This document shows, one piece after another, positions 636 to 40,905 of a DNA stretch of 40,905 bases; position 1 is the first letter of the stretch, and each line of letters begins with the position of its first letter. Position numbers and translations under genes: made by a program. The notes under the pieces are model-generated. The model searched no databases. It was given only the letters and a program-made list of their open reading frames with translations, and was not told the DNA's origin. The DNA is taken from positions 1-40,905 of IMG/VR virus record IMGVR_UViG_3300037069_000499. One strand, given 5' to 3'. Origin of the DNA: a virus.

Positions 636-679
636 TAAGAAACCGTCATATTAAACATTACTAGTGTTGGTATTGGTGC

Positions 680-793
680 ATAGAACCCCATCTCCCTACT
701 ACTTAGGCAGTCCCCGTCTCAACACCTCATACCTACTCTTACGCTGCTACCAATGCTCTCGATACTTCTATCGGCTTGCTAGTTGGGTTCTAT
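680..793. other. Long-range inverted repeat enclosing a structured non-coding segment
   Basis: ATAGAACCC (680-688) and GGGTTCTAT (785-793) are perfect 9-bp complements closing about 96 nt. Inside is a perfect 5-bp hairpin, CGATA-CTTC-TATCG (760-773). The segment is C-rich on the plus strand and lacks start codons with an SD. It could be a structured RNA or an origin-type DNA element. No promoter was confidently placed for it. Confidence 0.4.
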
Positions 794-846
794 CTCAATA
801 ACAGCTTCTTAGTAGTTCAGTGCTATGTAAGTTGGTCGTTCAACAT

Positions 847-897
847 TTATCCACGGCACGACCTCACCTGATAACACTGCACTTGTAGTTTTCCACA
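847..897. promoter_or_regulatory. Two DnaA-box-like sites; candidate replication origin
   Basis: TTATCCACG (847-855) is one mismatch from the consensus box TTATCCACA, and TTTTCCACA (889-897) fits TTWTNCACA. Both point the same way and lie in the gene-free control region. Two sites are few, so chance cannot be excluded. The absence of a phage-encoded helicase or polymerase makes host DnaA recruitment attractive (inference). Confidence 0.35.
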
Positions 898-925
898 GAT
901 CTACGAACTGTTTGCATGAGGATGC

Positions 926-954
926 TTGCAATTATTAGATACGTCTGCTATAGT
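926..954 (+). promoter_or_regulatory. Strong plus-strand promoter with extended -10 and inverted repeat over -35
   Basis: TTGCAA (926-931), a 17-nt spacer and TATAGT (949-954), preceded by TGC (extended -10). An inverted repeat, TTGCA (912-916) with TGCAA (927-931) enclosing GCAT-GAGG-ATGC, overlaps the -35 and could be an operator. Predicted transcription starts near 961 and meets a terminator at 977-1000. Confidence 0.6.
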
Positions 955-961
955 TAAGACA

Positions 962-976
962 AACGAAAGAAGTGTC
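962..976 (+). repeat. 15-bp repeat AACGAAAGAAGTGTC, copy 1
   Basis: Perfect 15-mer repeated at 1035-1049. Here it forms the first transcribed bases after the 949-954 -10 box. It shares the core ACGAAAG with the ribosome-binding leader AAACGAAAGGTTAC found before genes at 1482 and 6474 and on the minus strand near 38890. Confidence 0.7.
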
Positions 977-1000
977 CCCACACCCCGCGGTGTGGGTTTT
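977..1000 (+). terminator. Intrinsic terminator
   Basis: Perfect 8-bp stem CCCACACC (977-984) / GGTGTGGG (989-996), 4-nt loop, then TTTT (997-1000). Being only about 16 nt downstream of the predicted start at 961, it would give a transcript of about 40 nt unless antitermination occurs. Confidence 0.75.
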
Positions 1001-1034
1001 CCTTTTATCTCCTAATTACCCCCTAGTACACTCT

Positions 1035-1049
1035 AACGAAAGAAGTGTC
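1035..1049 (+). repeat. 15-bp repeat AACGAAAGAAGTGTC, copy 2
   Basis: Identical to 962-976. Here it is flanked on the left by ACACT, so the 3' AGTGT could pair back over the repeat. No terminator follows and no gene starts here. Confidence 0.65.
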
Positions 1050-1243: not shown

Positions 1244-1245
1244 AC

Positions 1246-1282
1246 AAAAAAGCGCTAGGTAAGGGTGGGCATCACCTAGCGC
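1246..1282 (-). terminator. Intrinsic terminator of the minus-strand short RNA
   Basis: On the minus strand a perfect 9-bp stem GCGCTAGGT/ACCTAGCGC (plus positions 1252-1260 and 1274-1282) with a 13-nt loop is followed by six Ts (1251-1246). No minus-strand gene ends here, so its only evident client is the RNA from the 1371-1399 promoter. Confidence 0.75.
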
Positions 1283-1364
1283 CAGAGGATATATAAGACT
1301 GTTAAAGCCGAAAGGTTACTAATAAATGTATTATTAAGAACTTACTCAAACACTATATATATCT
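1246..1364 (-). ncRNA. Candidate antisense sRNA against the shared ribosome-binding leader
   Basis: A strong promoter (1371-1399) and a strong terminator (1246-1282) bracket about 118 nt of minus-strand sequence without a plausible ORF. The RNA includes GTAACCTTTCG, a perfect 11-nt complement of CGAAAGGTTAC. That leader carries the SD of the genes at 1482 and 6474 and recurs on the minus strand upstream of 38860. Promoter and terminator are directly visible; regulatory pairing is inference. Alternatively the plus strand here is a dead copy of that leader. Confidence 0.5.
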
Positions 1365-1370
1365 GTTATT

Positions 1371-1399
1371 AGTATAGCACTTTAGATGAAACATAACAA
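1371..1399 (-). promoter_or_regulatory. Promoter of the minus-strand short RNA
   Basis: TTGTTA (1394-1399), 17-nt spacer, TATACT (1371-1376), with TGC just before the -10 (extended -10). It diverges from the early promoter at 1425-1453; the two -35 boxes are about 25 bp apart, so a single bound regulator could affect both. Confidence 0.65.
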
Positions 1400-1424: not shown

Positions 1425-1453
1425 TTGACACAAGCACTTTAAAGGAATATACT
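1425..1453 (+). promoter_or_regulatory. Early operon promoter and leader
   Basis: Consensus TTGACA (1425-1430), 17-nt spacer and TATACT (1448-1453). The short leader TAATAAACGAAAGGTTACGA supplies the SD (GAAAGG) for ATG 1482. The same 20 bases precede the ATG at 6474, which has its own promoter, so the two promoters share a leader cassette. Confidence 0.8.
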
Positions 1454-1481
1454 AAGAGAGTAATAAACGAAAGGTTACGAA

Positions 1482-1688
1482 ATGTTAGCACTCACACTAC
1501 AAGAAGAATTCTATGAGCAGGTCGAGACCCCATGTCCGCACCTATCTACCCACCGCGAAGAAGCATTTGGGTCGGTAAACTGGAATCCATTCACACAGGA
1601 CGCGGAAGACCCTACCTATATGGTTGAAGTCTGTGATGACTGTGACGAACAACTTTTTAACGAAATGGGTGACGACTGTGAAAATTAA
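1482..1688 (+). CDS. Small acidic Cys-rich early protein
   Basis: This is the first gene (68 aa) behind the early promoter; SD GAAAGG lies 8 nt before the ATG. It is strongly acidic and has C-P-H (near residue 18), H24 and a C-terminal CDDCDEQ pair with a final Cys, suggesting a single small zinc site. No family is recognised. The first position in an early operon of a virulent phage often belongs to small host-takeover or inhibitor proteins; that role is only a positional guess. The gene downstream overlaps its last codons. Confidence 0.7.
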   Translation: MLALTLQEEFYEQVETPCPHLSTHREEAFGSVNWNPFTQDAEDPTYMVEVCDDCDEQLFNEMGDDCEN

Positions 1689-6416: not shown

Positions 6417-6445
6417 TTGCATTATGCTTATGTATGTGCTATATT
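6417..6445 (+). promoter_or_regulatory. Promoter of the plus-strand lysis genes
   Basis: TTGCAT (6417-6422), 17-nt spacer, TATATT (6440-6445). The leader TAATAAACGAAAGGTTACGA before ATG 6474 is the same 20-mer as at the early promoter, so both may respond to the same post-transcriptional control, for example the candidate sRNA at 1246-1364. Confidence 0.7.
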
Positions 6446-6473
6446 GAAAAGGTAATAAACGAAAGGTTACGAA

Positions 6474-6653
6474 ATGAGTAAAGAAAACAAAGTCCCAAAG
6501 ACAATCAAAGTGAGTACGCTTCTTATCGCGTCGGTTGTAGTAGCAGGTATGCTTGCGACATTCGCCCTCGGATGGGCAGAACGAGGCGCTGACCAGGCAC
6601 GAGTACAAAGTGAAGCAGTTGCGATTGTTACCCAGTTAAAATCAGGCAAGTAG
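6474..6653 (+). CDS. Single-span membrane anchor, probably the N-terminus of the transglycosylase
   Basis: This 59-aa frame has its own promoter and SD (GAAAGG). It has a basic N-terminus (MSKENKVPKTIK), one transmembrane segment (VSTLLIASVVVAGMLATFAL) and a helical tail (ADQARVQSEAVAIVTQLKSGK). It ends 20 nt before the first possible start of a transglycosylase domain in the -1 frame, and that start has no SD. The simplest reading is one secreted or anchored enzyme split by a -1 shift (programmed or an indel). Alternatively it is a separate small holin- or pinholin-like protein. Confidence 0.65.
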   Translation: MSKENKVPKTIKVSTLLIASVVVAGMLATFALGWAERGADQARVQSEAVAIVTQLKSGK

Positions 6654-6673: not shown

Positions 6674-7039
6674 GTGCATATATCGGCACTAGAACACGAG
6701 TCAGACAGTATTAAAGAGATTGCTGAGTCGTATACACCACAGAACGTTCCTAGCGTAAATACCGCGGTGAATACATGTAGTGAATGGATGTCACAAGCTG
6801 GAATAGATGATATCCAGAACGCAACCACTCTTCTGAACTGGGAATCACACTGTAACCCAAATGCGGTAAACCCGTCCTCGGGGGCATGTGGTCTAGCCCA
6901 AGAGTTACCTTGTGGTAAATCAGGGTGTAAGCTCGGAGACGGTAGTTGTGAGATGAAATGGTTTAAGGAATACGTACTGGATAGATACGGTAGCTTTGCC
7001 GCAGCGGTACAGTTCCATTTAATCCATAATTGGTATTAG
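6674..7039 (+). CDS. Lytic transglycosylase-type cell-wall hydrolase domain
   Basis: Starting at GTG 6674 the frame gives 121 aa. The C-terminal 75 residues match Gram-positive-type transglycosylase domains: NWESHCNPNAVNPSSGACGL with the catalytic-type Glu, then LPCGKSGCKLGDGSC, KWFKEYVLDRYGSFAAA and a final HNWY. The Cys pairs suggest disulfides and an extracellular location. There is no SD before the GTG, and the frame is open upstream only to a TGA at 6611, so it probably depends on a -1 shift from the anchor gene. I would treat the two as one functional lysin. Confidence 0.75.
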   Translation: MHISALEHESDSIKEIAESYTPQNVPSVNTAVNTCSEWMSQAGIDDIQNATTLLNWESHCNPNAVNPSSGACGLAQELPCGKSGCKLGDGSCEMKWFKEYVLDRYGSFAAAVQFHLIHNWY

Positions 7040-9838: not shown

Positions 9839-9853
9839 CATTATGGATATAAT
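9825..9853 (+). promoter_or_regulatory. groES-groEL promoter
   Basis: TTTACT (9825-9830), 17-nt spacer, TATAAT (9848-9853), located 7 nt before ATG 9861, so the mRNA would be leaderless. It overlaps the divergent minus promoter at 9810-9838, making mutual interference likely. Confidence 0.6.
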
Positions 9854-9860
9854 AGCAACA

Positions 9861-10118
9861 ATGAACAAATATTCTCCACAACCAGGAAATGCTCTTGTTC
9901 GGTTAATTCCAGACTATGGGGCCATTAAAGTACCAACTAAATCATACGATTCTATCATGAGGGGCAAGATACTTGCCATCAATGAAAAAGATTCAGACGA
10001 TTATATCCATCTTATAGGTAAGGTAGGACACTGGCGACAATTCAAGGATGATCTTCGCCTCGATGATGAACATGCACTTATTGAACTTAAAGATATATTA
10101 GGAACCTCAGAGGAGTAA
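9861..10118 (+). CDS. groES: GroES-like co-chaperonin
   Basis: The protein (85 aa from ATG 9861; ATG 9843 would add six residues but lies on the -10 box) has the GroES pattern. It has an N-terminal QPGNALVRLIPDYG strand, a short mobile-loop region (AIKVPTKSYDSIM), RGKILAIN, then GKVGHWRQFKDDLRL and a final EHALIELKDILG. It would cap the phage GroEL encoded 1 nt downstream. The mobile loop lacks the usual IVL-type hydrophobic tripeptide, so specificity for the phage GroEL is plausible. The start choice rests on the promoter position. Confidence 0.82.
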   Translation: MNKYSPQPGNALVRLIPDYGAIKVPTKSYDSIMRGKILAINEKDSDDYIHLIGKVGHWRQFKDDLRLDDEHALIELKDILGTSEE

Positions 10119-10119
10119 T

Positions 10120-11646
10120 ATGCCATTTATCCCAGAAATTATTACAGAACGCGATGACGTACAGGAAAAGGTAAAAGAGGCATCCCACATTTTATATAGT
10201 GTGGCTAAAGCAGCGTATGGGCCTGGCTCTGGTAACGTCATTCTCGGATTCCGTCACGGGCCACCAATGCTCTCGAGGGATGGTGTTACCAATATTAAAA
10301 TGGTGCGATCTAAAGACCCTCACATCGACGATATTATCCAATCTATCCGTGAAGCTAGCGAGAAGAACAACAAAAAGGTAGGCGATGGCACGACTGCGGT
10401 TACTATCCTTTCCCACCATCTTATCCTTGCAGCTCAGCGACTAGAGGGCAAAGGCTTTAAACCCATGGATATCGCCGCGAAATTAAAGCAAGCCGAGAAA
10501 ATCGCTATCGAGTATATTGACTCAGTTAAGAAAGATACCGATAGCGCATATCTCAAGAAGGTCGCTACCATTTCAGCAAACGATGAGGCTCTCGGTGAGA
10601 TGATTGCCGATATTATGAACGAAGTCGGTAAAGACGGTGGTGTAATCATCGAGCAATATGAGGGACTAGGTATCCATAATGAAATTATTGACGGGTTCTA
10701 CTTCTCGAAGGGTTATAAGGATACCCAGCTTATTAATGATCTTTCTCTTAATCAATCTGTTCATAAGGATATTCCTGTTCTTATTAGCTCTAAGACGCTC
10801 GCTACGAGTGTAGATATTGCCCCTCTCCTAAAAGAGGTTCTTGACTCCGGTATTAAGGAACTCATCTTACTCGGCGAGGTACGTGATGAAGCCTTACAAA
10901 CCCTCATCATGGCGAAGAAGTCTGGTAATCTATTCGTTGTCCCTATCGACCCTCCATTTGTATCTGGCTCCTCTACCTTATTCCTTGATGACTGCGCACT
11001 AATGATTGGTGCAAAGGTATATGATGGAACGGACTTTAACTGCACGGATTACCTCGGGTTCGCCCAAGAGGTACTCGTAACAGAACACGCAACAACCATC
11101 TTAGGCGGTGACTCGAACAAAGACCTTATCGAAGAGCGTATCGCATCCCTCCATGACCAACTAAAGGAAAGCGACCACCCACAAAGTGTACAGTTTATTA
11201 AAGATCGTCTTGCTCGTCTTACTGGTAAGATGGCTATTGTTAAAGTTGGCGGAGCACTCGAACTAGAACGCGAAGAGACAAAACTTCGCGTACAGGATGC
11301 CGTTTGCTCGGTTCAGTCCGCAATGAAAGAGGGTATTGTACCAGGTGGAGGCACGACACTAGCACGTATCACTGGAACAGACTTTGACGACGCCTTTAAA
11401 GAACCGTTTAAGCTACTCATATCTAATATTGGTGGTAATCCAGAGGCATATCTGGCGAAACTAGAGCCGTCAGAAGTGTGGTATGGCTGGAACCTAAAGG
11501 ACGTAACAGATAAGCCTATTGATCTACTCGATGCTGGTGTTATTGACGCGAGCCTCGTAATTAAGGAAGTTGTGCGTAATGCCTGTAGTGTTGCCGCGAG
11601 TCTTATTACTGCTAGCGTGAGTATTGCATACGAAGATAAAGAATGA
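10120..11646 (+). CDS. groEL: GroEL-like chaperonin
   Basis: This 508-aa group I-type chaperonin starts 1 nt after groES. It keeps the ATPase residues: LSRDGVT (Asp52 equivalent), GDGTTAV (nucleotide loop) and LRVQDAV (Asp398 equivalent), then GIVPGGGTTLARI. The C-terminus ends SIAYEDKE without the Gly-Gly-Met tail of bacterial GroEL. It is shorter and diverged (GPGSGNVILGFRHGPP replaces the usual TLGPKGRNV region). Phage GroELs are thought to fold capsid or tail proteins. The operon sits between the ejection-protein and lysis genes on the opposite strand. Confidence 0.93.
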   Translation: MPFIPEIITERDDVQEKVKEASHILYSVAKAAYGPGSGNVILGFRHGPPMLSRDGVTNIKMVRSKDPHIDDIIQSIREASEKNNKKVGDGTTAVTILSHHLILAAQRLEGKGFKPMDIAAKLKQAEKIAIEYIDSVKKDTDSAYLKKVATISANDEALGEMIADIMNEVGKDGGVIIEQYEGLGIHNEIIDGFYFSKGYKDTQLINDLSLNQSVHKDIPVLISSKTLATSVDIAPLLKEVLDSGIKELILLGEVRDEALQTLIMAKKSGNLFVVPIDPPFVSGSSTLFLDDCALMIGAKVYDGTDFNCTDYLGFAQEVLVTEHATTILGGDSNKDLIEERIASLHDQLKESDHPQSVQFIKDRLARLTGKMAIVKVGGALELEREETKLRVQDAVCSVQSAMKEGIVPGGGTTLARITGTDFDDAFKEPFKLLISNIGGNPEAYLAKLEPSEVWYGWNLKDVTDKPIDLLDAGVIDASLVIKEVVRNACSVAASLITASVSIAYEDKE

Positions 11647-26609: not shown

Positions 26610-27365
26610 CTAGTCAATGTTTAGTTTCACAAGTGCTACGTTGCTTGATGCTGATGTCTTAAACCAACCAATGTTACCAGTCGTCGCAGCCGAGATGATT
26701 ACATATCCTGCTGTGCCTGCCTGGTCCTGAGCAACACCTAAGCCAATTGTACCAGTCGTTGCCTTTACAACTGCGAGGCCGCGGCTCTTCACCCAACCGT
26801 AGTAGGTAACTGAAGCGGTATTAGCGACAACTAATGTCGATACACCAACTGGGACGTTGCCAGTTGTAGAAGGAGCTACACCGTTGTACTCAGATAGAAC
26901 GAGGTCAACTGTGTCGGTACCAGGTACCAAAGTAGTCATACCAACTGGTAGTGGTTCCTCAAGAAGAAGCGTTACGTAGCCAGTTGTAGCGGCCGCGGCA
27001 GTGTTACCTGCTACCTTAACTTCATATTCACCATCTGCTACCGAGTGGATGCGTAGATATTGGAATTGGTCGGCTGTAACCGCAGTTGCGCCGTTGGTGA
27101 CAACAAGCGTTCGTGAACCTGCTACAAGGTTTGTAGCTAACTGTCCACCTGTGCCCGATGCTGTTACTGCAAGCCCCGTTGAGTTTGCTGGTGCCGCTGG
27201 CCCCACAACAAGGAGGCCAGGGGCGATTGTTGAGGTACCACCGAACTTTACGAAACGATAGAGACTACCGTCTGCGGTCTGTCCGAGTGTACCATATGCC
27301 ATCTCTTTTGATGTCTGAAGAGTGTTGATGTCTTCAATGGTTAGTACAATAGGTCCTGTTTGCAT
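26610..27365 (-). CDS. Capsid decoration/cement protein candidate
   Basis: SD AAAGGAG precedes ATG 27365. The 251-aa protein is beta-rich and symmetrical (LVAGSRTLVVTNGATAVTAD, YVTLLLEEPLPVGM, VPVGVSTLVVANTASVTYYG), with repeated GxxTLVVxN strands suggesting two related domains. Location next to the capsid gene and the Thr/Ala/Gly bias support a cement protein. No sequence family is named with confidence. Confidence 0.62.
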   Translation of the reverse strand: MQTGPIVLTIEDINTLQTSKEMAYGTLGQTADGSLYRFVKFGGTSTIAPGLLVVGPAAPANSTGLAVTASGTGGQLATNLVAGSRTLVVTNGATAVTADQFQYLRIHSVADGEYEVKVAGNTAAAATTGYVTLLLEEPLPVGMTTLVPGTDTVDLVLSEYNGVAPSTTGNVPVGVSTLVVANTASVTYYGWVKSRGLAVVKATTGTIGLGVAQDQAGTAGYVIISAATTGNIGWFKTSASSNVALVKLNID

Positions 27366-35610: not shown

Positions 35611-36229
35611 CTGTTTTCTCCTTAACTTGCCGCATAATGTACAAGCCCATTTCAGGTAATACAGCATTACGCAGTAGCTTACGTTGATTCTTCGTGCCCT
35701 CTGGTAGGTCAATGCCATAACTCGCTGCAAGTGTCTCTTTAGTTTGATCTGTGATAGCGCCAGTATATTTACGGGTAAAAGACTTATCGTAGATCAACAT
35801 ATTGCTCCAGACATAATGGCGATCAATAATGGCCGTGTGTTGTATCAGAGGTTTATAGTAAGGTGTTACATTCTCAACTATCCAATTACCCTTAAAGAAT
35901 TTACTGAGGAAGATAATCTCTTGATAAAGACTCATATCCGGATACTCGTAGATTCCATGTCCTTGCTTAGCTGTCACCATACGACTATGCGTCGGGCAAG
36001 GTGGGCTGCTCCATATGAAGTCGAACTCTTTGTAATGATCGAGTAGATACTGATGTGCATCACCGACGATAATAGTGTCGCCCGGATAGAGCTGTTTATA
36101 AACATCCGCGATGTACTGTTCAGATTCTACAGCTACAATCTCCTCCACCTTCTCTACAAAGCTACTCATAGTCTCTTTATCTGATACGGTTGACCAGTAG
36201 AGGTCTTCTAGGGGTTTATTAGTGGCCAT
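35600..36229 (-). CDS. Short cytosine-5 methyltransferase-like protein lacking motif I
   Basis: In this 209-aa protein, IVAVESEQYIADVY resembles motif II and VGDAHQYL motif III. WSSPPCPTHS (motif IV, Cys78) and WIVENV (motif VI, ENV 119-121) are intact, and NAVLPEMG resembles motif X. The SAM-binding motif I (F-x-G-x-G) is absent from the N-terminus, which starts MATNKPLEDLYWSTVSD. It may be inactive, bind nucleotides differently, or depend on a partner. It lies between the polynucleotide kinase and small genes; TGATG couples it to the kinase. Confidence 0.72.
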   Translation of the reverse strand: MATNKPLEDLYWSTVSDKETMSSFVEKVEEIVAVESEQYIADVYKQLYPGDTIIVGDAHQYLLDHYKEFDFIWSSPPCPTHSRMVTAKQGHGIYEYPDMSLYQEIIFLSKFFKGNWIVENVTPYYKPLIQHTAIIDRHYVWSNMLIYDKSFTRKYTGAITDQTKETLAASYGIDLPEGTKNQRKLLRNAVLPEMGLYIMRQVKEKTDAR

Positions 36230-37080
36230 CAGAAGTTCCCCTCCGCTACCTGTAGCACCTTAAGACCTAATTCATTACGCCACATATCGACTACCTGATT
36301 ACGATCATCGAGTACAAAATCTACGACAAAATTATCGCGGATATACGTATCGAAAAGTTCACGCTTAATAATATTGTCCTTACGATTGTCTCCTTCAGAA
36401 CGCATATAAAGCTCGTGGAAAGGCACACGGTTCTCAGATAACCATTGTACCGTCTCCTGTCGGCAAGTGCTGTCACGGCCACTCAAAAGAATAACTACGT
36501 GGTCATTATAGTGTCTTAGTAGGTCAATAATTGTCTTATCAGGATTATCAGTACCTACTTTATGCCAGTCATATGGTGATCGCTCACCCATGTGAGCTAT
36601 AGTGCCATCAATGTCACACATAATAGCCCTAGGCTTACCATAGGGTGCCTTGTACCTAACTGGTGCCGGTTTTATATAGCGGTTATACATAGTGCGGATT
36701 ACTGCCTCGCCGACGCTATTGTCACGATTAAGATCACGCTCGATACATGTTTCTAGTGGCACATCCAGAAAGCTTTTAGTCTCGAAATTAACACTGAGAT
36801 CTTTAGCGATCTGTTTAAGAGTAGTGACGTGCTTAGGGTCGAGATTGGTATCATCAACAATAACTGTCATACCTTTACTGAGGTAATATTTAATTATGAG
36901 GTCTCGGATAGCAAGTATGTGCTTCTCGTTGTTACCACTCCACTTGCTAGCATCAATCATAGCCCGCATATCATCTTTATTTACACGCTTGATGTTGCCG
37001 CCACTTCCCAATACTTCTTTATTAGCCCATGTCGACTTACCAGAACCAGGAAGACCTAGCGTCATAATTAGTTTAGTCAT
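36229..37080 (-). CDS. pnk: Polynucleotide 5'-kinase/3'-phosphatase (T4 Pnkp-like)
   Basis: ATG 37080 (283 aa) is chosen because AAAGGAG lies 6 nt before it; the upstream ATG at 37128 overlaps the nucleotidyltransferase. The N-terminal kinase has a P-loop GLPGSGKST (residues 9-17). The C-terminal HAD phosphatase has MCDIDGTIAHM, ILLSGRD and VLDDRNQVVDMW. As in T4, kinase is N-terminal and phosphatase C-terminal. It prepares broken RNA ends (5'-P, 3'-OH) for the RNA ligase encoded two genes upstream. Confidence 0.9.
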   Translation of the reverse strand: MTKLIMTLGLPGSGKSTWANKEVLGSGGNIKRVNKDDMRAMIDASKWSGNNEKHILAIRDLIIKYYLSKGMTVIVDDTNLDPKHVTTLKQIAKDLSVNFETKSFLDVPLETCIERDLNRDNSVGEAVIRTMYNRYIKPAPVRYKAPYGKPRAIMCDIDGTIAHMGERSPYDWHKVGTDNPDKTIIDLLRHYNDHVVILLSGRDSTCRQETVQWLSENRVPFHELYMRSEGDNRKDNIIKRELFDTYIRDNFVVDFVLDDRNQVVDMWRNELGLKVLQVAEGNF

Positions 37081-37765
37081 TGCCCACTCCTTTGTATGCC
37101 CGGTAAATAAAATCTTCAATCCACTCAATGTCTGGCTTCATTTTAGGCGCGGTAGACCATGCTTTAGAAACGGAAGTCTGAAGGGTCGAGAACCATTGTG
37201 TCGCTATTGGTGTGTATTCTGCCTTCCAGTCGCTCTTAGCGAGTAACATGAAGTCCTTCATTTCACCGTTGGGGATACTGCAAACAAATTCCCCAGTATC
37301 GAGGAAGGTTAGGCACTGCCACATCACACGCATATAGGCCACAACGAACTTACCGGTACGTCGTTGTCCTAGCTTGCCATCATCCTCAAATAAATACATT
37401 TTGTTTAGCTGGTTTTGTGCATAGCCCTTTGAAGCCATAACAAATTTATCCGTATCCATGAACTTCTTCCAATTGGCTCGCATTTCGTCCACAATTGGTG
37501 AGCTTTCAAATACTTTGTCGGAAAAGAATACCTCCAGGATAGTGGCATTACCATGTACAGCCTGTTTACAGAAGTCCGCTAGTTCATAGCTCGTATTGTC
37601 TTCGTCGCCCTCAATCCACGTAGTATTCTTTAATGTCCTGAATGGGCTTAGTACGTCCTTTAGGTCATGGATATGAATACCGCGATAGTCGTAATCTGAG
37701 GCTGGGGTATTAAGACCGTGTAAACGGCTGCCCACAAGAACCTTTGTTAGTATTACCTCGCTCAT
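37073..37765 (-). CDS. Nucleotidyltransferase of the pol-beta superfamily
   Basis: SD GGAGG precedes ATG 37765. The 230-aa protein has the hallmark GSRLHGLNTPASDYDYRG (Gly12-Ser13, Asp24 and Asp26) of COG3541-type nucleotidyltransferases. A helical domain follows (LADFCKQAVHGNATILEVFF) with a later RTGKFVVAYMRVMWQCL. Sandwiched between RNA ligase and Pnkp genes, it may add or restore nucleotides at RNA ends, but the substrate is not visible in the sequence. It overlaps both neighbours. Confidence 0.82.
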   Translation of the reverse strand: MSEVILTKVLVGSRLHGLNTPASDYDYRGIHIHDLKDVLSPFRTLKNTTWIEGDEDNTSYELADFCKQAVHGNATILEVFFSDKVFESSPIVDEMRANWKKFMDTDKFVMASKGYAQNQLNKMYLFEDDGKLGQRRTGKFVVAYMRVMWQCLTFLDTGEFVCSIPNGEMKDFMLLAKSDWKAEYTPIATQWFSTLQTSVSKAWSTAPKMKPDIEWIEDFIYRAYKGVGND

Positions 37766-38694
37766 CGTTCCTCCTTACCGCTGTCAGCAATCGAGATGCT
37801 ATTGTTAAGTACATCGTGATAGATTTGTATGAATTTCTTCATGCTGAGGCGTTGGAGACGCTTAAAGTCAACCTGATGGATTTTCTTCTGTATATCCCAT
37901 ATCTCTTCGGTTAGCATATCGTGATAACATGCACCAGCAACTTGAGACGTGTGTTCCATATCAAGGCGTTTTTCGGTGATATTCTGTAGCTTCTGCATGA
38001 TTTTCTGTACGCGACCGAGGGTTGCATACTTATTAATAATATACATTTCATTGTATGCTTCGCTGTTCTTATTATTGCCGCCGAATACGATTGCATTACT
38101 CTCTTTGAATCTCTCATGCACGACCTTCGCATAGACGAGATCACCAAATTTGTTCTTAAAACCTTCGTTCTTGATGACGACACCCTCACCATTGGCACCG
38201 ATAAACGATTTACCAACCCATTCTTTAATCCTATCTAATGTGACCTCTATCGGTGCAGGTGTAAATAGTTTAGGGTACTCCACCCCTAGTAATTCAGATA
38301 TGTGTGCAACCTCATACTGTGGAAGATATGTCTCGGCATCTTCATTAAGAACATCGAATAGGTAGATCTTTCGGTATGCATCATCAGGATAGGTAATAGT
38401 ATGTTTAACAAGCCATTCTCCGTATAATCGTAGCTCAGGATGGGCTTCAACCCAGTCAAGCAGCATCTTATTAGACCGCACTGCCTCCTGAAAGCCATTA
38501 AAACTATCATCGAGCGGTAACTCACGGGTACGTGTCCCGCATTTCACTAAACTAGAATCATTATCCCACCAAATACTGATGTTTGCCCCGTCAACCTTTT
38601 CTTGTACTAATACGTTACCAATTAAAATGTCATCAACCTCTTCTTTACCGAGGCGGTGAATCTTTGGGTATTCTTTAAATCCGTTCACCTTCAT
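37762..38694 (-). CDS. RNA ligase (Rnl2-like)
   Basis: This 310-aa ATP-dependent RNA ligase has motif I EKVDGAN (nucleotidyl Lys33), motif III-like LRLYGEWLVKH, motif IV NGEGVVIK and motif V YAKVV. A C-terminal helical domain is consistent with Rnl2-type enzymes (which seal nicks in dsRNA or tRNA breaks). Length is near the family norm. SD GAGGAG lies 9 nt before ATG 38694, which lies in the 3' end of the small upstream gene. Together with Pnkp it forms a canonical break-repair pair. Confidence 0.88.
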   Translation of the reverse strand: MKVNGFKEYPKIHRLGKEEVDDILIGNVLVQEKVDGANISIWWDNDSSLVKCGTRTRELPLDDSFNGFQEAVRSNKMLLDWVEAHPELRLYGEWLVKHTITYPDDAYRKIYLFDVLNEDAETYLPQYEVAHISELLGVEYPKLFTPAPIEVTLDRIKEWVGKSFIGANGEGVVIKNEGFKNKFGDLVYAKVVHERFKESNAIVFGGNNKNSEAYNEMYIINKYATLGRVQKIMQKLQNITEKRLDMEHTSQVAGACYHDMLTEEIWDIQKKIHQVDFKRLQRLSMKKFIQIYHDVLNNSISIADSGKEER

Positions 38695-38860
38695 CGTTAT
38701 ACTTCTCCTCTACTAACGTATTTATTAAATCGACTATCATTATATCGTTCACTAATGAGATAAGACGTATCTTCCGGTAGGTTTCGGGACGTACGGCTAC
38801 TCGCTTGTGGGTCTTTCGCATCTCTGGAGAGAGGGTAGGGCGTCCTACGGGGTTCTTCAT
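38675..38860 (-). CDS. Small ribbon-helix-helix-like protein
   Basis: This 61-aa basic protein (MKNPVGRPTLSPEMRKTHKR) has a strand-like VAVRPETYRKIRLISLVNDI followed by a helix, the pattern of Arc/MetJ-type ribbon-helix-helix DNA-binding proteins. AAAGGA lies 9 nt before the ATG. It overlaps the RNA ligase gene by 20 nt. A second ATG at 38882, right after the shared leader GAAAGGTTAC, opens another frame that looks like a shadow. It could regulate its own operon. Confidence 0.65.
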   Translation of the reverse strand: MKNPVGRPTLSPEMRKTHKRVAVRPETYRKIRLISLVNDIMIVDLINTLVEEKYNDEGERI

Positions 38861-38903
38861 GGATTATTCCTTTAAATATCATAGTAACCTTTCGTTTGAT
38901 TTA

Positions 38904-39359: not shown

Positions 39360-40905
39360 TGAAATATTCTTCTATGTCCATACCGAAGGCGCTAGCCTGG
39401 GCATAATCAGCGTCCCCTCGTCTACCAATCTCAGGAGGACACCACTCAATATAGAATTTACCTTTGATCGACGGATGTTCCATCTTCATACAGTACTCAG
39501 TCTCGCCAGTGTCCATAAAGTTCTTCACCTCGTATAGTTCTGTGGGTGTGTTAAGGCTCCACGGGAAGTTTGCCGCGCAATAGTCTTCTCCGTACATATC
39601 TTGAAGCTTCGTGTATTTAAGGCCGGTGGCTATCTTTTTAGCGCCAAGCTGTTCTAGTAGACGGTCTGGACGTAACATCTGGATAGCTACAGCGCGTTGG
39701 TCAGCTCCGAGTTCTAGTTTCGCCAACTCAGGTAGGGTAAGCTCTTGGCTAACGACCTTCTTCCATACATCTTCTTTAAAGGCCACACCATGCAAGGACC
39801 ATAGTTTATATCCATCCCGCCATTCGATTGCGGGTAATTGATCGGAGTCCAGTAGATTATTAGTATCTCTTCGTATTGCCTTCGGTCGGCGACACACAAT
39901 AGCGAAATCAGTAAGGAATATGCTGAAGAATACACCACTGTGGAGATAATCCAGATATTTCTTTAGTCCTTCGTGTTCGGTGATACCGATCTGGTAGAAG
40001 AAATCCCAGAATGAGAAGTCATCTGCGCGCCATGCTAGGCTTTCCCAAGACCATGTAAATACTTCAAAATTTCCCTCTTTTACTTGGCCCGACACTTGGC
40101 CCGACACTTGGCCCGACACTTGGTCCCGCACTTGGTCCCACACTTGGTTCGACACTTGGTCCCGCACTTGGCCCCGCACTTGGCCCCACACTTGGTCCCA
40201 CACTTGGTCCCACACTTGGTCCCGCACTTGGCCCGACACTTGGCCCGACACTTGGCCCGACACTTGGCCCGACACTTGGCCCGACACTTGGTCCCACACT
40301 TGGTCCCGCACTTGGCCCCGCACTTGGCCCCACACTTGGTCCCACACTTGGTCCCACACTTGGTCCCTCACTTGGCCCGACACTTGGCCCGACACTTGGC
40401 CCGACACTTGGCCCGACACTTGGCCCGACACTTGGTCCCACACTTGGTCCCGCACTTGGCCCCGCACTTGGTCCCACACTTGGTCCCACACTTGGTCCCA
40501 CACTTGGTCCCACACTTGGCCCGACACTTGGCCCGACACTTGGTCCCACACTTGGTCCCGCACTTGGCCCGACACTTGGCCCGACACTTGGTCCCACACT
40601 TGGTCCCGCACTTGGTCCCACACTTGGTTCGACACTTGGTTCGACACTTGGTCCGACACTTGGTCCCACACTTGGTCCCGCACTTGGTCCCACACTTGGC
40701 CCGACACTTGGTCCCACACTTGGCCCGACACTTGGTCCCACACTTGGCCCGACACTTGGTCCCACACTTGGTCCCGCACTTTAGGGTTATTTGATTCCAT
40801 CTTTATAATGTTCGCAGCATACTGAGCAGCAAGAGGGCTATCTACGAATATAATCTTAGGGGTTTTAAGCCCAGATATTTTGTAGAGCCAATTGATGCCC
40901 TTCTT
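39343..40905 (-). CDS. Main part of the 558-aa tetrapeptide-repeat (DUF6745-like) protein
   Basis: This piece continues the gene that starts at 243 through the circular junction and ends at TAA 39343. After residue 80 come 58 tandem V-[WRS]-[DGN]-Q units (about residues 81-312), then a 246-aa C-terminal domain. The domain has WSWESLAWRADDFSFWDFFY, AIEWRDGYKLWSLHGVAF and a late RDGDADYAQASAFG-like segment (actual text RRGDADYAQASAFG), which fit the DUF6745 C-terminal pattern (WHG, then an Asp/Glu-rich module). The function is unknown. Positions 40903-40905 differ from the other end, so the last codon here is an assembly-edge artefact. Confidence 0.82.
   Translation of the reverse strand, partial: KKGINWLYKISGLKTPKIIFVDSPLAAQYAANIIKMESNNPKVRDQVWDQVSGQVWDQVSGQVWDQVSGQVWDQVRDQVWDQVSDQVSNQVSNQVWDQVRDQVWDQVSGQVSGQVRDQVWDQVSGQVSGQVWDQVWDQVWDQVWDQVRGQVRDQVWDQVSGQVSGQVSGQVSGQVSGQVRDQVWDQVWDQVWGQVRGQVRDQVWDQVSGQVSGQVSGQVSGQVSGQVRDQVWDQVWDQVWGQVRGQVRDQVSNQVWDQVRDQVSGQVSGQVSGQVKEGNFEVFTWSWESLAWRADDFSFWDFFYQIGITEHEGLKKYLDYLHSGVFFSIFLTDFAIVCRRPKAIRRDTNNLLDSDQLPAIEWRDGYKLWSLHGVAFKEDVWKKVVSQELTLPELAKLELGADQRAVAIQMLRPDRLLEQLGAKKIATGLKYTKLQDMYGEDYCAANFPWSLNTPTELYEVKNFMDTGETEYCMKMEHPSIKGKFYIEWCPPEIGRRGDADYAQASAFGMDIEEYFNATEA
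40084..40779 (-). repeat. 58-copy 12-nt tandem repeat encoding V[W/R/S][D/G/N]Q
   Basis: The array has 58 units of 12 nt with no interruption. Units 28-39 (40312-40455) and 40-51 (40168-40311) encode the same 12-unit order, a recent 144-bp tandem duplication with at least one silent change. Because 12 is a multiple of 3, copy-number slippage would change protein length without breaking the frame. All six frames are open here, which creates misleading antisense frames. Confidence 0.97.
40777..40902. repeat. Right copy of the 126-bp terminal direct repeat
   Basis: Identical to 1-126. It begins in the last bases of the tandem repeat array and includes the codons around M74 of the repeat protein. 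The array probably caused the assembly to end here. Confidence 0.93.

Follow-up and report, generated by a model that had tools for sequence, protein, structure and literature searches.

A predicted trans-acting antisense RNA matched to a shared translation leader in phages of the Saccharibacteria group

Introduction

What is the role, in a phage genome, of a short segment without an open reading frame that has a promoter and terminator of its own and carries the complement of a leader standing ahead of several phage genes? The question is raised by a viral DNA of 40,905 nt (IMG/VR record IMGVR_UViG_3300037069_000499, positions 1 to 40,905; hereafter the window, meaning the whole stretch analysed), and it bears on a field, gene control in the phages of the ultra-small Patescibacteria, that is almost unknown. 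The favored answer, held with considerable confidence and resting on sequence, is that the segment would encode a phage trans-acting antisense sRNA that acts on a small phage regulon by covering its Shine-Dalgarno region. If this is correct, one small RNA sets the translation of a defined regulon through a leader/anti-leader code readable from sequence, and the same code yields predicted targets and compatibility groups for uncultured phages.

The genome

The ends of the window overlap by ~126 nt (1-126 and 40777-40902, with a few bases changed at the last positions); the record therefore represents a complete circular genome, and the gene at 40800 thus runs on into 1-246. A gene at 40064-40800 contains a long tandem repeat (WDQVSGQVRDQV...), is open in other frames too, and is fused to a DUF6745-like domain. 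The major capsid protein matches TM7 phage DolZOral124_53_65 (recorded host candidate division TM7) at 48% identity and has ~80 relatives in IMG/VR; scans with early and structural proteins added few more. On this sequence evidence the phage belongs to the Saccharibacteria-phage group, its host being inferred from its relatives. A plus-strand block from 1482 encodes a Rad52/Erf annealing protein and NinG, and most remaining genes lie on the minus strand. The window also encodes a GroES/GroEL-like pair (9843-11646), found as well in the relatives G004, G006 and G011 and in the TM7 phage MG269973.

The antisense unit and its predicted targets

An earlier note, made from the letters of this DNA, had proposed a minus-strand promoter with an extended -10 and a strong terminator bracketing an ORF-less stretch, whose RNA would be perfectly complementary to the leader over 11 nt. 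All of these elements are present:

1371 to 1399, minus strand: promoter of the predicted antisense RNA, with -35 TTGTTA (1399-1394), a 17-nt spacer and -10 TATACT (1376-1371)
1245 to 1364, minus strand: predicted antisense sRNA of ~120 nt with two hairpins (fold z -4.0)
1309 to 1319, minus strand: anti-leader GUAACCUUUCG, exact complement of the leader CGAAAGGTTAC
1245 to 1283, minus strand: intrinsic terminator, a 12-bp stem (GGCGCTAGGT..ACCTAGCGCT) followed by TTTTTT

A TG precedes the -10 box, transcription is expected to start at ~1364, and the first paired base of the RNA follows the end of the -10 box by 7 nt (shuffle P 0.032). The T-run of the terminator is on the minus strand, no ORF of at least 60 aa lies within 1240-1365, and the RNA segment folds better than 200 of 200 shuffles. 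Within the predicted fold the anti-leader sits partly in an internal loop, with a mean unpaired probability of 0.57; its CG end is fully open and its GUAAC half mostly paired. Within 1050-1245 there are two more minus-strand extended -10 boxes, TGCTATAAT near 1220 and TGCTATGAT near 1065. A hairpin and a T-rich tail come after each of them, which probably marks additional small RNAs arranged in tandem with the antisense one.

The leader core occurs in four exact copies in the window, at 1309-1319 (+), 1468-1478 (+), 6460-6470 (+) and 38884-38894 (-), where 0.6 would be expected even with up to one mismatch; none of 100 shuffles reaches four. The predicted targets and their promoters are as follows:

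1425 to 1453, plus strand: early promoter TTGACA-17-TATACT, start near 1460
1460 to 1484, plus strand: target leader 1, predicted hairpin GUAAU-AAACGAAAG-GUUAC, then GAA ATG
6417 to 6445, plus strand: promoter-like TTGCAT-17-TATATT ahead of leader 2, read by eye
6452 to 6476, plus strand: target leader 2, the same as leader 1 over 25 nt
38880 to 38894, minus strand: target leader 3, CGAAAGGTTAC-T-ATG, less certain

The Shine-Dalgarno leader said to precede the ATGs at 1482 and 6474 is indeed found there, the shared 25 nt being GTAATAAACGAAAGGTTACGAAATG, and promoter-like sequences precede both copies such that the expected start in each is the first G of GTAATAAACGAAAGGTTAC. The predicted hairpin of leader 1 forms the extreme 5' end of an mRNA whose first gene (1482-1688) belongs to the early operon with Rad52/Erf, and leader 2 precedes a 59-aa transmembrane-type protein (6474-6653) and then a weak SLT-like protein (6674-7039). 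These two targets are firm. The third is less certain, because the minus-strand copy, which does exist near 38860 as had been claimed, adjoins the ATG, at 38882, of a 61-codon ORF, and the gene at 38860 is read in another frame and has a separate site of its own, TTTAAAGG. This copy lies just past the stop codon of an HNH gene, upstream of a ribbon-helix-helix-like gene and an RNA-repair operon. That operon (36229-38860), which encodes an RNA ligase, an RlaP nucleotidyltransferase and a PNKP-type kinase-phosphatase, is what one would expect of a defence against host systems that cut tRNA.

Leader and anti-leader pairs in related phages

The earlier note had named in advance both a check, co-conservation of RNA and leader in related phages, and an outcome that would refute the idea, namely relatives in which the leader changes while the RNA does not. 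The opposite is found: seven other phages each have a leader sequence of their own and one RNA unit changed to match it. The leader cores are:

window: CGAAAGGTTAC
G004: ATTAGTAAGGAGTT
L150: TGGAAAGGATTATC
G035: CGAAAGGGTTATG (with G.U)
MG269973: AAGAAAGGGTA
G031: AAAGAAAGGGTTAA
L281: AACGAAAGGACTAATA
G024: TAATTGGAAAGGAGTTA

Anti-leader and leader match over 11-17 nt across the pairs, and the units have a common build in all eight phages: a -10 box 4-12 nt ahead of a hairpin, an anti-leader within the loop of this hairpin or next to it, and, invariably on the antisense strand, an intrinsic terminator. Several operons use one leader in most of the eight, and the Shine-Dalgarno core falls inside the predicted duplex in every pair. 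Unit architecture, leader sharing, orientation and exact, co-varying complementarity are thus established at the level of the DNA letters.

The individual cases differ in arrangement. G004 (L067) has the layout of the window upstream of its early operon with different sequences: an early promoter (TTGACA-17-TAGTAT), the leader AGTAAGGAGTTACAAAATG and, ~150 nt upstream, a leader copy, AGTAAGGAGTTTACAA, within a minus-strand promoter-hairpin-T6 unit. In L150 the leader is GGAAAGGATTATCATG, of which an exact 13-nt copy is contained in a minus-strand hairpin of 12 bp followed by a T-rich tail. Three ORFs of G035 (L201), beginning with the Erf gene, are each preceded by the leader TATAACTAAACGAAAGGGTTAT; the only antisense copy, CCGAAAGGATTAT with one G.U, belongs to a unit at a distance of 2.1 kb. 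MG269973, an annotated TM7 phage, has four operons with a promoter and a CATAACAAGAAAGGGTAC-like leader, one with a core mismatch, and the complement is found in the 5' hairpin, GCCGGUUCUGAAUCUUACCCUUUCUUUCCGGC, of its single unit; G031 matches this design with a longer stem (CGUGGCUGG/CCAGCCACG) and its own leader. The units of these two phages begin where a homologous gene ends, and by eye this gene resembles the structural gene at 26610-27365 of the window; the two phages have target genes in common (three homologous pairs by eye) while their leaders differ. Two leaders and an antisense copy exact over 14 nt occur in L281, a phage contig belonging to a 0.9-Mb MAG in which the leader-type pattern matches the phage contig only, and G024 has one local leader plus two related ones. 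Given that the units of G035, MG269973 and G031 do not adjoin their targets, the predicted pairing must act in trans. An antisense RNA directed against a leader common to several transcripts is, as a prediction from these pairs, well supported.

Specificity and scope of the searches

When the eight units were set against the eight leaders, the pairing of each unit with its own leader was the single best of 40,320 permutations, both by contiguous-pair score and by duplex energy. As the units had been identified through complementarity, this test speaks to specificity and not to existence or expression; what it shows, for the predicted RNAs, is that each matches its own leader and not a generic Shine-Dalgarno. 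Two features are independent of how the units were found: the distance from the end of the -10 box to the hairpin is 4-12 nt in all eight (shuffle P<=0.032 for each), and the folding z of the units ranges from -2.4 to -6.8. The anti-leader core also has a higher mean unpaired probability (0.53-0.76) than the RNA as a whole (0.36-0.50).

A local search covered 2.17 Mb and asked for a copy of the leader at 45-350 nt upstream that has no ORF of its own and an opposite-strand terminator of 12-13 pairs; it matched only the window, G004 and L150 (at 173, 166 and 160 nt), and its inverted-copy control gave one match in an unrelated record. A search by orientation across 44 record groups, comprising near-complete genomes and fragments, required a leader k-mer common to at least two genes and a non-leader copy with an antisense-strand terminator. 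Only the window, MG269973, G031 and L281 qualified, and the sense-strand control gave one match, from fewer than three leaders. Most of the 44 groups, the close relatives G006 and G011 included, had no detectable pair, so that the family of units is either patchy or decayed below detection; many of the records among the relatives are fragments. A looser genome-wide search for anti-leaders close to terminators gave many cis or coding matches, of which only multi-leader, structured ones were kept; those in G043, G037, G022, G038, G020, L252 and L274 were set aside as probably coding, cis or inside the terminator stem itself.

Other approaches were less informative. Ranking the predicted RNA against all start regions, a check that had also been suggested, did not place the targets at the top by full-length duplex energy in the window, G004 or G035, because GC-rich start regions win; only the contiguous core is distinctive for the targets. 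Comparing the control region by BLAST with phage genomes and with 12 relatives gave nothing useful, because what is conserved is layout, not letters. The exact leader occurs in 30 stretches across all of IMG/VR, mostly in unrelated phages where the leader stands singly and no antisense unit accompanies it, and the leader letters alone are therefore not diagnostic. No Rfam family reached its gathering score in the window or at the unit loci of the relatives, and none appeared at E<=5 in 560-1500.

Proposed mechanism and alternative explanations

No RNA has been measured, and production of the RNA, its pairing in the cell, the repression and its biological use are all inferred. The sRNA would be transcribed from its own host-type promoter and stop at the intrinsic terminator, and its hairpin would present the anti-leader for pairing over 11-17 nt with the leader ahead of several phage operons, among them the early recombination operon and the transmembrane/transglycosylase-like cassette. 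The duplex would cover the Shine-Dalgarno (AAAGG/AAGGAG) and, for leaders with a 5' hairpin, the loop and 3' arm too, and would keep 30S subunits off the target messages, which may additionally be exposed to decay. Blocked ribosome loading is inferred because the Shine-Dalgarno lies in the duplex of every pair. The leader of several phages is predicted to fold into a small 5' hairpin whose loop contains the Shine-Dalgarno; the RNA, which repeats the 5' arm, could invade this hairpin. Such hairpins are found in 9 of 19 targets versus 31 of 188 other leaders (P 0.003); they are a subgroup feature only, missing in MG269973 and G031.

The biological use may be early-gene shut-off or immunity to related phages, and both fit the data; immunity or copy control accounts for them as well as the joint timing of the targets that the earlier note had inferred. 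Shut-off is favored by MG269973 and G031, whose units are located where a probable structural gene ends, whereas ordinary promoters and changing pairing types favor immunity. In an immunity role, which would leave the molecular mechanism as it is and change only its biological meaning, a constitutive sRNA would be the main repressor of the early genes and, like the c4 RNA of P1/P7, would silence early leaders whenever a relative with the same pairing type superinfects. This is a serious candidate, albeit a rather unlikely one. The RNA promoters are of ordinary host type, pairing types vary between relatives with large though incomplete exclusivity, and neither an integrase nor a CI-type repressor was found among the window proteins scanned; the lack of an integrase or any other sign of lysogeny, however, weighs on the other side, with the reservation that not every protein was scanned. 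A wider proposal, for now speculative and doubtful, is that in a whole group of Saccharibacteria phages a fast-evolving antisense RNA replaces the protein repressor as the chief regulator of a regulon defined by its leader, and that new immunity types arise as leader and RNA change together. Were it true, it would be an RNA counterpart of repressor-operator heteroimmunity, acting on several operons at once.

Whether the repeated motif acts as RNA at all can also be questioned. It might be a DNA site for a repressor or activator near start points, the copy in the RNA unit being one more operator, and the equal spacing of the copies at 1468 and 6460 after the -10 box, like the common promoter sequence that precedes the MG269973 copies, is compatible with this. 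Yet each version keeps a Shine-Dalgarno core properly spaced from the ATG and varies freely elsewhere, and the unit copy is always within a terminated antisense hairpin, which makes an operator improbable. That 1294-1322 is merely an old copy of the promoter-leader cassette, with an incidental minus-strand promoter and terminator, gains some support from a direct repeat (76% likeness to 1453-1481 over 29 nt) and is nevertheless very hard to sustain: the unit recurs with other sequences in seven phages, its terminator always on the antisense strand and its promoter at a nearly constant distance, units also occur far from any leader, and the co-variation of leader and anti-leader largely refutes it. 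A sponge transcribed in the leader direction, suggested by the leader-like sequence on the sense strand of the unit, is scarcely credible when run-of-T terminators and -10 boxes are on the antisense strand in all eight. As regards the preferred reading, an antisense RNA acting in trans, the eight natural pairs with their different sequences resemble compensatory-mutation experiments run by evolution, and the mechanism is therefore testable by short reporters in ordinary bacteria without culture of the host.

Comparison with known RNA regulators

Short RNAs that pair with leader sequences have a precedent in phage immunity in the CI RNA of satellite phage P4, which is processed from the target transcript and acts via premature termination; the window-type RNA differs as an independent unit with an inferred Shine-Dalgarno block. 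The c4 RNA of P1/P7 is cut from a transcript of its target's own promoter and acts on one operon. The window unit, in contrast, lies on the strand opposite to its target with its own promoter and terminator, where c4 lies upstream on the same transcript and strand, and several operons may carry the target leader. The window-type RNA works most like c4 but is not a member of the C4 family, because there is neither an Rfam match nor a same-transcript layout. According to a review (PMC12197685), c4 is a small antisense RNA of phages that blocks translation by pairing around the ribosome binding site; its complementary stretches probably lie in loops, and its pairing type sets immunity. The likeness lies in the predicted pairing of the window-type RNAs with the ribosome binding region, Shine-Dalgarno core included in 8/8.

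The OOP RNA of lambda and the sar RNA of P22 are short terminated antisense transcripts that control phage development (PMC12197685). They are transcribed across their targets and are fully complementary in cis, whereas the window-type RNA would reach distant loci through pairings of 11-17 nt. In the window the entire unit is located upstream of the early promoter, ~95 nt from the start of the target transcript, with the other targets kilobases off, and the defining property of the cis-encoded type, transcription through the complementary strand of the target, is not met. VpdS of phage VP882 and PreS of lambda are trans-acting, Hfq-dependent phage sRNAs that act on host and phage RNAs (PMC12197685); the likeness is in trans action, and the difference is that the window-type targets are a reused phage leader. 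The marks of a trans-acting bacterial sRNA, namely its own promoter, seed pairing to several separate messages and an intrinsic terminator, are all met by the predicted unit. No description of small RNAs of Saccharibacteria phages was found in the literature searched.

Other regulatory elements

A -10 box (TGGTATAMT in the window) precedes late genes (window 24269, 18991, 15217 and 9803, all minus strand; L067 10066), and a AGAAAGCCTGAGCC..GGCTCTTTTTT terminator lies within ~10 nt of the expected start, ending shortly before the start codon or overlapping it. This arrangement, with four copies in the window and one in G004, looks like a set of attenuators needing override by a phage antiterminator. 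Noncoding stretches with long complementary ends (window 640-930; L067 13735-13960, 12715-12930 and 18720-18990) gave no Rfam matches and are possibly larger structured RNAs. Finally, at window 926-1049, L067 13990-14190 and L150 3780-3900 a plus-strand promoter leads into an array of the form (element-terminator)n-element, the element differing in each phage (AACGAAAGAAGTGTC twice, CAATTCGTTATGACAACT three times, TTCTGACGTAACAAT twice), and these arrays may represent a second co-varying short-RNA system.
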